A stretch of DNA of 64,000 nt from Nymphaea colorata. Taxonomy: Eukaryota; Streptophyta; Magnoliopsida; Nymphaeales; Nymphaeaceae. The notes below the pieces were generated by a model. The model saw nothing but the letters and a program-made list of their open reading frames with translations. It made no database searches and was not told where the DNA came from. The translations under genes were made by a program, and so were the position numbers. Below, piece by piece: positions 46,447 to 51,640 of this stretch (its first letter is position 1; each line of letters opens with the position of its first letter). Where the stretch lies: NCBI RefSeq assembly GCF_008831285.2, contig NC_045138.2:22601934-22665933 (forward strand), written 5' to 3'.

Positions 46447-46530
46447 ATATTGAAGAGATTCTAGGTCTAAATCCCATGATCATTTATGATATTGAAGAGA
46501 TTCTAGGTCTAAATCCCATGATCATTTATG
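46447..46530. repeat. 42-bp exact tandem duplication
   Basis: Two identical successive units beginning ATATTGAAGAGATTC. Perfect identity implies a recent event. Confidence 0.95.
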
Positions 46531-46957
46531 CTATGGTGCATTATCCTGATGTATTATTCTTTGTATTATTCTTCTGTACAATACAATAAGTCCACGAGCA
46601 GAGTCCGAAACTTGAACTCCTAATTAAAATTAGAAATGTTTTTAATATAAAATAAAAAATTTAAAATAAAATATATTTTTAATAATAAAATATACGATAT
46701 AATATACCGTCGGGTACCCGAACTCTATGCCTATTTTGGCTGGTTTAACAGTAATTTTGAAACCTTTGTGGCGAAGCAGCTGCAGCCCATCCAGTTTTTT
46801 AAAATGTCACCACTAGTCCTACCCAGAGTCCAAAGCGCGTATGTCTAATCCAAGTGGCGGACTTCCTTGACGGCCAAGGAAATTAAACCTTCCGCCCCTG
46901 AACGCTTCTGCCCTGTTTCTTTTTCAGAGCTCGAGGGAGAGGTAGGCTCTGGCGACG

Positions 46958-49001
46958 ATGGACGAAGGGGATGATGCCGATTTGCTTGCTCTGCTTCAGT
47001 CGCTGGTTGATCCTCCCGATTGCCCTCCCATGTCTTCCGTCCCCTCTGTCGGGTTTCTGGTCGATCCTCCAGATTGCCCCTCCATGTTTTCCGTCCCCTC
47101 TTTCGGGTTCCAGCAAGAATGTACCCTGACAGAAGCATGTTGGGCCGAAACTGTGGGCAGTAATTCAGTAATCGGGACCGGAACCCCACCGGAAAGGGCG
47201 GTATTGAGCTACTATTTGTCGGATGAGACCGGTGGAGAGGTTTGGATGGGTTTTAACCCTAGCTACAACGGCGAATCGTCCAACGGAAGGATTCCCGTAG
47301 ATTCATCGCCGATCGACGGCGATGAACGGCTTCCCTCAAGGTTCGCTGATCCTCAACTTGGTGCGGTAGATGGCTTCGTCGCGGGGGAGGTCGACGAAAA
47401 GAAGGAGAATCGGGAAGCCGCTGAGGATCTCGTTGTGGGATCGCTGCGCCTTCCTCCCGATGATCCGCCAAGTTCTTCACCGTGGCCCGACCTCGAAGTT
47501 GTTGATCTGTTCGTGGATCCACCGGAGAAAGGAACTAAATGCGTCTTACCTGCGAAGGACGAAGGCGATTCGGATTATTTGATTAAGAAACGCAAAAGGT
47601 ATATAGATGTTTTTAATCGTATTTGGCAGAGTCGTTTAGAACTGTATGTTTGATCTTGTTAACATGGATTCGTTATTATGTTTGCTTTTGAGAATTTATG
47701 GGGATCTTTGAAGTGAATTTACGAATGACCCGATCCTGTACACTTTGCATGTTGCAGAGCACACAGAAATATTTAGAAGCAACAAAGCGACAATAGGGTT
47801 CATGGAGGAATTTTTGGGAAAAAAAAATTACGTCAAATCATGTAAAAATAAAGTTCTTAAAGCTAAACATGGTATAGTGTTGCTTTGGAGGATTTTTGGG
47901 GGAAAAAAATTATGTCAAATCATGTAAAAAATGAAAGTTCTTAAAGCTAAACATAGTATAGTGTAGCTTTCCTCTCCCATTATCCTGTTTCTTCACATCT
48001 TGTGAATCAAATTTTGAAAACTCTCTCCTTTCTGCGTTGCGTGGCTATTTTCTTTCAACAAATGGGGTATTTCTGCAATTCTTATTTCAGGTACAGACCA
48101 GTCATGTTCCTGCTGCTATCAGAGGAATTATGAGAAGTGTTTCTTTCATTTGATTTCCGTATCTCTCATAATACCTTGATGCCAATTTCTACGGTAATGA
48201 TTTACAGAGGAAGGGATGATAAAACAATGTTTTATACAGCCCAAATTTTTTATTGTACCCACCGTCTGAATTGCATCGTGATAAGCTACTCTGTAACTGT
48301 CTTGAAAGGAGAAACAATTTTTCCATCCGCTGCAAAAGTACGAGGTCGCGGTTCTCTATTCGGGGATTGTATTTGTTTTCTTTCAGGCAGATGAGGAACA
48401 GAGACTCGGCGTTGCGGTCAAGGGAGAGGAAGAAGACGTACGTCAAGGATCTGGAAATGAAGAGCCGGTTCCTCGAGTTCGAGTGCCGGAGGCTCCAGCA
48501 GGCGCTTGCGCTTTGCTGCGCGGAGAACCATGCCCTCCGTGTTCGCGCCTTCAGCTTGGAAGCCTCCACGGCCAGACAGGAGTCTGCTGTACTCCGTACG
48601 GGTAAATATGCCAAATGATTCTTCCGCAGTTCGTCACATAGAGCATTCCCTTGACCATGGTTTTTGTCTTCTTCTTTATGGCCCTCTCAGAATCCCTGCC
48701 GTTGGATTCCCTGCTCTGGCTCGTGGCGCTCGTCTGGAGGGTGTTTCTTCCCCTGAACGCCCGATCCTCCGAGGAGGGAGGCGTCGGCGTGGAAGAAGGG
48801 AAAAGGAGAACATCGGCTCCCGTTGCCCCGACAAAACGGGTGATAAATGAACGACTGTTCGGATCTAGGTTGGTGCTTCTCAGGCGCCGTTGCAGAGCCG
48901 CGAGGAAGAAGATGAAAGGGTTCAGAGACTTCGCCGTCCGGCAGTGTATCCTTGGGCTTGGCTTTTTCTTAGCAGCTTTTGTTTCCTTCTGTTTCTTTTG
49001 A
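46958..49001 (+). CDS. bZIP60: bZIP60-type transcription factor of the unfolded protein response
   Basis: ER-membrane bZIP factor activated by IRE1-mediated mRNA splicing under ER stress. Three exons: 46958-47598, 48387-48601 and 48691-49001. The junctions split R214 (AG|G) and E286 (G|AA), giving 388 residues before IRE1 splicing. Residues 1-213 are acidic and Pro/Ser-rich with one 18-residue tandem repeat (16-33, 34-51). The basic region KKRKRQMRNRDSALRSRERK has the invariant N-x7-R (N218, R226). Zipper positions run L236, L243, L250, C257, L264. Then RQESAV, a bZIP60 hallmark, leads into a hydrophobic anchor LPLDSLLWLVALVW (about 288-301). A very hydrophobic tail (CILGLGFF onward, 371-388) ends the protein. 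The first ATG is used. Removing the 23-nt IRE1 segment would give a 330-residue soluble form with an Arg-rich tail. Rice bZIP50-type genes are the same orthologous group. Confidence 0.93.
47003..47110 (+). repeat. In-frame 54-bp duplication in bZIP60 exon 1
   Basis: Two successive 54-bp units (47003-47056, 47057-47110) encode LVDPPDCPPMSSVPSVGF and LVDPPDCPSMFSVPSFGF. The frame is preserved. Confidence 0.93.
47804..47970 (+). repeat. 83-bp tandem duplication in bZIP60 intron 1
   Basis: Units 47804-47886 and 47887-47970, each running from GGAGGA(A)TTTTTGGG through GTCAAATCATGTAAAAA to GTATAGTGT, with few differences. Confidence 0.9.
48581..48702 (+). promoter_or_regulatory. Predicted IRE1 splice sites (twin CxGxxG) flanking a 23-nt unconventional intron
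   Basis: IRE1 cuts after the third base of CxG|xxG in two hairpin loops. Site 1 is CTG|CTG (cut 48586/48587) and site 2 is CTG|CCG (cut 48698/48699). In the mature mRNA the segment between them is 48587-48601 plus 48691-48698, 15 + 8 = 23 nt, the length known for Arabidopsis bZIP60. Removal shifts the frame after S280. The new 50-residue tail contains GGRRRRGRREKE (about 306-317), a clear basic nuclear signal, and ends at the TGA at 48848-48850. The membrane anchor is lost. The hairpins were not folded computationally. Confidence 0.85.
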
Positions 49002-50584: not shown

Positions 50585-51640
50585 CAAAATTCAATCTTCC
50601 GTGCTCCACCTCAGGTTGGTGAATGCAAAATGCATGTGCTGAGTTTGTCAATCATACGTTGAAAGTTTGTCCTATCTAAAAGCCTTTGTGCAATGATCAG
50701 CAATTTGACCGTTGCTTCATGTCGAATTTGCGTGGATCAGATATTGGAATATTGTATTCATGAACTAACAGTCAATATGAATATGTTTGGTTTGTTTGTG
50801 AATAAATAAAAAAATGTTTTAATGTATAATGCGGCTCGACTGTGATAGTATGAGTGGCTGGAGATTAGTATTGAACACCTAGATACTTTGGTAACAAAAT
50901 TTAATTACTGAGCTTTGTATTTTCCATGAGGTATTCAAATTCCACTTAGGATTTTGAGACTGTCACTTTTTTTTGTGTTATTGTATTGGATTTAAGCCAA
51001 GGAAAACACAATATGTTAACGACATATTTTGGGACATGCTGCCCGATTAGAGTCGCAAAATGCAGTTAGGCGAATATTTGATTTGCCTCAAAATAAGATG
51101 ACTTGACCAAGGTTTACTTTGAGATAGAACTACTCGAAGGTAGCATGAAGAAGCAGATATGGTTGTTGAGGTTGTTGCATGAATTTGAGAAGATTGCTGC
51201 AAACCGAATATCCAATTTTGCTTTGTTGGGATAGAATAATATATTCTTACAAGTCATCTGCACGGGAAATGGTTCAATAGAACTTCTCCATCGCTAAAGC
51301 TCATGCCATTGCTCCAATGGAAAATCCACAGTTTTCGATTCAAACAATCCCCATTCATGTAAATTCCTTCAGTTGAATGAGCTACCTTAAGACGGACGCA
51401 AAAAGGTTTTAATGGTCCAAAGTCTTTCATTTGAAAATCACGAGAAAGGTAGACTTTAAATTTTTCAATGATGTCCTTCTGAATGTCATCTATATATACC
51501 AAGGCAACAGCAATAGATCACCGGGGGGGAAAAGCGAATAGTAAATAATCACCTTTCCATTTGACAAATCCAAAATTTTGAAGATTGAAGGTTGATCTTT
51601 CGTTGCCAATCACTTGGCTTCGGATCATTGTTGGGTTCAA
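50585..51640 (-). mobile_element. Second copia element, decayed pol fragment
   Basis: On the - strand, RT appears as FGFVKWKGDYLLFAF, one TGA, then SIAVALVYIDDI (near 51600-51480). It continues KFKVYLSRDFQMKDFGPLKPF to GIYMN (to about 51340). Further on, 50791-50590 reads TKHIHIDC, then SNGQIADHCTKAF with stops, the end of copia RNase H. The piece between is scrambled. No LTRs are found. The active-site text is YIDDI, unlike the YVIN of the 37.8-kb element, so it is an independent copy. Confidence 0.65.

Follow-up and report, generated by a model that had tools for sequence, protein, structure and literature searches.

A spliceosomal intron splits the predicted IRE1-excised segment of a bZIP60-type gene of Nymphaea colorata

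Splicing by IRE1 is usually presented as a process that does not involve the spliceosome. In metazoan XBP1 and yeast HAC1, IRE1 cuts conserved bases in paired loops and releases segments of 26 and 252 nt, respectively, giving a frameshift or a new C-terminus, and the cited passages mention no spliceosomal intron within either segment (PMC4398384, PMC4891664). The Cryptococcus gene HXL1, as described in excerpt, has a 55-nt conventional intron as well as a 56-nt IRE1 intron, but the two are separated by the bZIP domain, one on its upstream and the other on its downstream side, and are not nested (PMC3154848). Among plants, Arabidopsis bZIP60 (AT1G42990) shows the order bZIP domain, twin hairpin and membrane segment, and loss of its 23-nt IRE1 intron shifts the frame to a basic tail; these 23 nt are unsplit and, in the wording of the Fig 4A legend, lie ‘within the second exon’ (PMC4398384). 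Additionally, the Arabidopsis double hairpin was PCR-amplified from genomic DNA as an artefact control beside RT-PCR, with the peaks of the unspliced form marked, which suggests that no intron lies between the primers (PMC4393087). Maize bZIP60 also carries an IRE1-excised segment before the membrane segment, with a frameshift to a nuclear signal, but according to the cited passage this segment is 20 nt and the monocot linker three bases shorter (PMC3369818). For rice bZIP50/74, the excerpt cited likewise describes a frameshift through unconventional splicing (PMC3591102).

Here we analyse a bZIP60-type gene in the window (the whole 64,000-nt stretch of Nymphaea colorata DNA under analysis), whose 23-nt IRE1 segment is itself interrupted by an 89-nt intron. 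The system is a known one, with a gene layout absent from Arabidopsis: the intron of one machine is nested in that of the other, and the ends that IRE1 would join span both. This layout raises the question of whether either splicing machine depends on the other. Among the literature matches listed (titles, starts of abstracts and passages of main texts, mostly from open-access papers), we found no description of a spliceosomal intron inside an IRE1 intron, an absence that counts as weak evidence. The initial annotation had left open whether the nested layout is general among bZIP60 orthologues. It does not extend to Arabidopsis, and the same literature scope yielded nothing on the genomic intron positions of bZIP60 in monocots or other non-Arabidopsis plants.

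The bZIP60-type gene and its twin hairpin

Judged from its sequence, the gene is a plant bZIP60 homologue, with a bZIP domain, a predicted transmembrane segment and twin IRE1 hairpins; orthology to plant bZIP60 is suggested by the order of the domains, by the element and by its match to 46 nt of Arabidopsis. The sequence anatomy and the reading frames were computed directly. The gene lies on the + strand and has three exons, separated by introns of 788 and 89 nt, with the following features:

46958..47598, + strand: coding part of exon 1, 641 nt, with the ATG at 46958, placed by the open frame and the exon join
47599..48386, + strand: intron 1, 788 nt, GTATAT...TTTCAG, phase 2, splitting the basic region between KKRKR and QMRNRDSA
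48387..48601, + strand: exon 2, 215 nt, with the basic region, the leucine zipper and the entire 5' IRE1 hairpin (Pfam bZIP_1/bZIP_2 on the joined protein)
48691..49001, + strand: coding part of exon 3 for bZIP60u, with the stop at 48999-49001
48693..48749, + strand: predicted transmembrane segment SLPLDSLLWLVALVWRVFL of bZIP60u, aa 287-305, Kyte-Doolittle 19-aa mean 1.62
48699..48850, + strand: alternative frame of bZIP60s after IRE1 splicing, with basic RRRRGRR at 48779-48799 and the stop at 48848-48850

The protein encoded by the mRNA unspliced by IRE1, bZIP60u, has 388 aa. Its bZIP DNA-binding domain (aa 209-255) reaches 29.2 bits for PF00170 (cut-off 27.6) and 26.2 bits for PF07716 (cut-off 22.3), and the solved structures that it matches are bZIP proteins, e.g. 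CREB and TGA factors (best E 0.00019). The predicted transmembrane segment of bZIP60u directly follows the IRE1 site. Excision of the 23 nt shifts the frame and yields the 330-aa bZIP60s, which has no hydrophobic segment and carries a basic RRRRGRR tail, a nuclear-type signal by sequence. Neither bZIP60s nor the protein encoded by the intron-retained RNA contains a transmembrane segment, the best stretch reaching a hydropathy of 0.85 on the simple scale that was used here in place of a trained predictor. A second hydrophobic stretch, QCILGLGFFLAAFVSFCFF, lies at the C-terminus of bZIP60u (48942-48998) and is stronger than the first (mean hydropathy 2.13), so that bZIP60u may span the membrane twice or be anchored by its C-terminus.

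The mature mRNA is predicted to form two hairpins around the IRE1 segment:

48579..48595, + strand: 5' IRE1 hairpin GGAGU-CUGCUGU-ACUCC, 7-nt loop, entirely in exon 2, predicted cut 48586^48587
48691..48710, + strand: 3' IRE1 hairpin AAUCC-CUGCCGUU-GGAUU, 8-nt loop, predicted cut 48698^48699

Specifically, the 3' stem of the mature RNA is extended by the GG at the end of exon 2 (48600-48601) to GGAAUCC-CUGCCGUU-GGAUUCC, while the minimum-energy fold places one extra pair inside the 7-nt loop of the 5' hairpin. The predicted cuts fall after the G of the first CNG in each loop and are 23 nt apart in the mature mRNA. The twin hairpins with CNG/CNG loops that are expected 20-23 nt apart in bZIP60/bZIP50 mRNA are thus present as a predicted structure. 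A CNGCNG twin-hairpin pattern, defined after the element had been seen and so not blind, was found a single time in the mature mRNA model, exactly at the two cut points, and on neither strand of the unspliced window; of 1000 dinucleotide-shuffled versions of the mRNA, 1 contains it. The 64-nt core also folds better than shuffled sequences (z -3.38, 2/200 as good), as it does with more flank (z -2.17, 5/200). The Arabidopsis 46-mer alone, with its 5' flank missing, forms the 3' hairpin only, and 37/200 of its shuffles fold as well (z -0.94). A scan for known RNA families over the locus, run on unspliced DNA, where the intron interrupts the element, returned two sub-threshold microRNA matches only.

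An intron inside the IRE1 segment

In the genome, the IRE1 segment and the intron that interrupts it are arranged as follows:

48587..48601, + strand: first 15 nt of the IRE1 segment, at the end of exon 2
48602..48690, + strand: nested GT-AG intron 2, 89 nt, phase 1, in the linker between the hairpins; retention leads to a stop at 48616-48618
48691..48698, + strand: last 8 nt of the IRE1 segment, at the start of exon 3

Across the locus, the order reads GAGTCTG/CTGTACTCCGTACGG, then the intron GTAAATATGCC...TTATGGCCCTCTCAG, then AATCCCTG/CCGTTGGATTCC, where the slashes mark the predicted IRE1 cuts. The split of the 23 nt into 15 and 8 nt by an 89-nt GT-AG intron, as the initial annotation had proposed, is borne out by the alignment with Arabidopsis, by the unique spacing, by the twin-hairpin pattern of the mature mRNA and by the intron signals. 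When intron 2 is removed, the sequence spanning the junction aligns without gaps to the Arabidopsis element, with 38/46 nt identical; the Arabidopsis 46 nt were rebuilt from two published primers, taken from an excerpt of the source (PMC3373542). Four of the 8 mismatches lie in the linker, and two are stem bases that still pair (A-U vs G-U); the remaining two are the N of a CNG and 48595, in the outermost pair of the 5' stem, where the other base falls beyond the 46 nt. A scan of donors at 48560-48689 and acceptors at 48600-48719 gave 7 GT/AG pairs at least 60 nt apart around the junction. Three of these keep the frame to the C-terminus, and the 23-nt spacing is obtained with 48602/48690 only.

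The spliceosomal signals of intron 2 are ordinary: pyrimidines make up a fraction of 0.725 of its final 40 nt, a branch-point-like TTGAC stands 36 nt before its 3' end, and its removal restores the coding frame. Its donor, GTAAAT, compares with GTATAT for intron 1 and with GTATGT and GTATAA at the introns inferred for two IRE1 genes in this genome. Since both borders of the IRE1 segment repeat CTG, the sequence fixes the IRE1 cut only to within a few nt, and the Arabidopsis 23 nt are printed in a shifted register in a passage of PMC9302528. A recent insertion or introner copy was considered as the origin of intron 2 and rejected, in that the 89-nt intron matches itself only in the genome (E up to 10, in a search that skips simple repeats and common words). 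With up to 1 mismatch allowed, a 12-base near-palindrome within the intron matches the window 3 times (0.88 expected), a count reached in 7/100 shuffles, and its exact match is the intron itself.

The two splicing reactions and the intron-retained RNA

At a probability of roughly three in four, we read the locus as a bZIP60-type gene of the unfolded-protein response with the usual IRE1 element, which carries an 89-nt spliceosomal intron in the hairpin linker and follows the usual two-step path. Each of the two reactions presumably occurs in this plant. The nuclear spliceosome would remove introns 1 and 2, and the mature mRNA would then fold into the twin hairpin and encode the membrane-anchored 388-aa bZIP60u. 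Upon ER stress, IRE1 would cut both loops, the 23 nt would be released and a ligase would rejoin the ends, whereby the frameshift would swap the membrane segment for the basic C-terminus of the 330-aa bZIP60s. We infer that the intron is near-neutral: it is most likely tolerated owing to its place in the linker, where the element has the most freedom to vary, and Arabidopsis works without such an intron, which is therefore not required by the mechanism. Against this reading, an intron that is conserved or regulated could look no different in a single genome. Even a neutral intron would show that the hairpin linker tolerates a large change.

We followed five pairs per hairpin with flanks of 30, 60 and 100 nt. 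In the mature RNA, the predicted pair probabilities are 0.91-0.95 for the 5' hairpin and 0.95-0.97 for the 3' hairpin, and with intron 2 retained they are 0.01-0.02 and 0.51-0.52, respectively. Forcing both hairpins in the retained RNA costs 2.2 kcal/mol at every flank length, which we take to be within the error of such fold predictions. In this RNA, the 5' hairpin can form 5 stem pairs, while the 3' hairpin keeps 6/7 pairs, one of them via the intron base G48690. Retention is thus predicted to weaken the IRE1 substrate, not to abolish it. According to the initial annotation, there can be no IRE1 substrate before nuclear splicing; this stands for the twin hairpin with its 23-nt spacing, which exists only in the spliced mRNA, but not for the loops and near-whole stems, which survive retention.

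If the retained RNA were cut at the same two loops, 112 nt would be removed, and the product, as computed directly, equals the bZIP60s mRNA exactly. Because this excision would leave an identical mRNA, bZIP60s is not strictly dependent on the spliceosome at intron 2, and the further claim that the layout forces an order on the two reactions does not strictly hold. For bZIP60u, the spliceosome at intron 2 is strictly required. The spliceosome acts in the nucleus and IRE1 later, in the cytosol at the ER; the order of spliceosome and then IRE1 is set by compartment, not by sequence logic. A long distance between the loops is no bar in fungi, as indicated by the IRE1-type introns given in the cited excerpts as 252 nt in yeast HAC1 (PMC4398384, PMC3154848) and 626 bp in Candida parapsilosis (PMC6222058). 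With intron 2 retained and no IRE1 cut, the frame stops within the intron and gives a 290-aa bZIP protein that ends ...ESAVLRTGKYAK and has no membrane anchor. This protein resembles the Arabidopsis construct bZIP60-delta-C (aa 1-216), which according to the cited passage is nuclear and activates the BiP and CNX promoters, more weakly than bZIP60s (PMC12781897). By this resemblance, failed splicing of intron 2 could release activity without IRE1 instead of silencing the gene.

These results bear on several other readings. If removal of intron 2 were an obligate licence for IRE1 cleavage, spliceosome capacity would gate ER-stress competence, and the fall of the predicted hairpins from above 0.9 in the mature RNA to 0.01-0.02 (5') and about 0.52 (3') at all three flanks is consistent with this. 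We regard such a strict order as rather unlikely, given that both loops persist with 5 and 6 stem pairs possible, that forcing both hairpins costs so little, that IRE1 introns of 252 and 626 nt exist, and that cutting the retained RNA at both loops leads to the same product. The exact identity of the two products would equally suit a fail-safe, in which nuclear RNA that gets out with intron 2 in place can still be cleaved by IRE1 and loses 112 nt (23+89) to give bZIP60s, so that the response would survive failed splicing, e.g. under heat. That the hairpins are nearly separable units flanking the intron, and that long IRE1 introns are known in fungi, also agrees with a fail-safe; however, the predicted retained fold hides the 5' loop and intron-retained RNA is usually exported poorly, and we consider it quite improbable. 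An exon-junction complex sits 20-24 nt upstream of a junction, and the 48601/48691 junction would put it at 48578-48582, where it would cover the 5' arm of the first hairpin (48579-48595). The nested intron might therefore be a licensing device, with the complex shielding bZIP60 mRNA from IRE1 until the first ribosome clears it and brings the mRNA to the ER, and with failed splicing giving either soluble bZIP60 without IRE1 or the same bZIP60s via the 112-nt excision. This we hold to be very doubtful; if true, one gene would have three routes to nuclear bZIP60, chosen by the spliceosome, translation and IRE1.

Most retained introns are noise, and a longer 3' untranslated region may invite decay. 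Both points speak against retention of intron 2 as a regulated third output, in which the 290-aa bZIP protein, having neither the membrane segment nor the IRE1-made tail, would be soluble without IRE1. Such an output would fit the position of the stop just before the membrane segment and a gene model that has no junction after this stop, and would hence leave no downstream exon-junction complex. It would also fit the nuclear, promoter-activating behaviour of bZIP60-delta-C as excerpted (PMC12781897), and on balance it seems distinctly unlikely to us. Highly improbable are different borders, i.e. use of the donor at 48596 or an exonic stretch. The 48596/48690 pair is also in frame to the C-terminus and would give a 95-nt intron and a bZIP60u of 386 aa, two residues shorter, but it would bring the IRE1 cuts to 17 nt apart instead of 23 and lose the GG that closes the 3' stem, and its donor is GTACGG, as against GTAAAT and GTATAT. 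Were the stretch exonic, an in-frame stop would precede the membrane segment.

The main interest of the layout is not a need for IRE1 to wait for the spliceosome: whichever of the two reactions take place, the product is defined, and in principle IRE1 could by itself take over the task of both. The gene offers a natural test of the loop distance permissible for plant IRE1, of a response via intron retention without IRE1, and of the shielding of IRE1 sites by a junction complex. The intron-free Arabidopsis gene makes a comparison of the two arrangements possible.

Genome context and other features of the window

The genome searched comprises 407.8 Mb in 783 contigs. IRE1-type RNase domains, in line with the two-step path, were found in 8 stretches on contigs C2, C3 and C9, all above the Pfam cut-off and two with stop codons read through. 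The loci L007-L010 on these contigs, including a C9 group at 12.14-12.21 Mb, carry such domains and are possible tandem copies or pseudogenes. The RNA-ligase profile PF09511 matched nowhere, not even in the controls, and so says nothing on the ligase. A bZIP60 query returned 5 genome stretches, two of which belong to the present locus and three to more distant bZIP sequences (42-47% identity), leaving one bZIP60-like locus. An intronless processed copy was rejected, as none was among these 5 stretches of the assembled genome, where missing sequence could hide one. An intron shared with a bZIP17/28-like paralogue was likewise rejected: in L011, which we take to be bZIP17/28-like, the bZIP region lies in one long open frame. 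Relatives were confirmed neither among 18 pattern stretches in viral contigs nor among 175 in prokaryote contigs.

Within the window, an ERSE-like match with 1 mismatch at 46578 was considered as an ER-stress promoter element and rejected, since with the consensus that we assume for ERSE the window holds 4 matches (2.18 expected) and 16/100 shuffles reach 4, which is chance level. On the - strand, an open frame at 51254-51502 (MVYIDDI...) resembles a piece of a copia-type reverse transcriptase, MVYIDDI presumably being a motif of that enzyme. Three tandem repeats accompany the gene. In the part encoding the N-terminus, a 54-nt duplication (47003-47109, 2.0 copies, 88% matches) gives the in-frame repeat LVDPPDCP..SVPS.GF. 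Intron 1 contains an 84-nt duplication (47803-47970, 2.0 copies, 90% matches), and some 0.4 kb before the start codon there is a 42-nt repeat (46447-46534, 2.1 copies, 97% matches).
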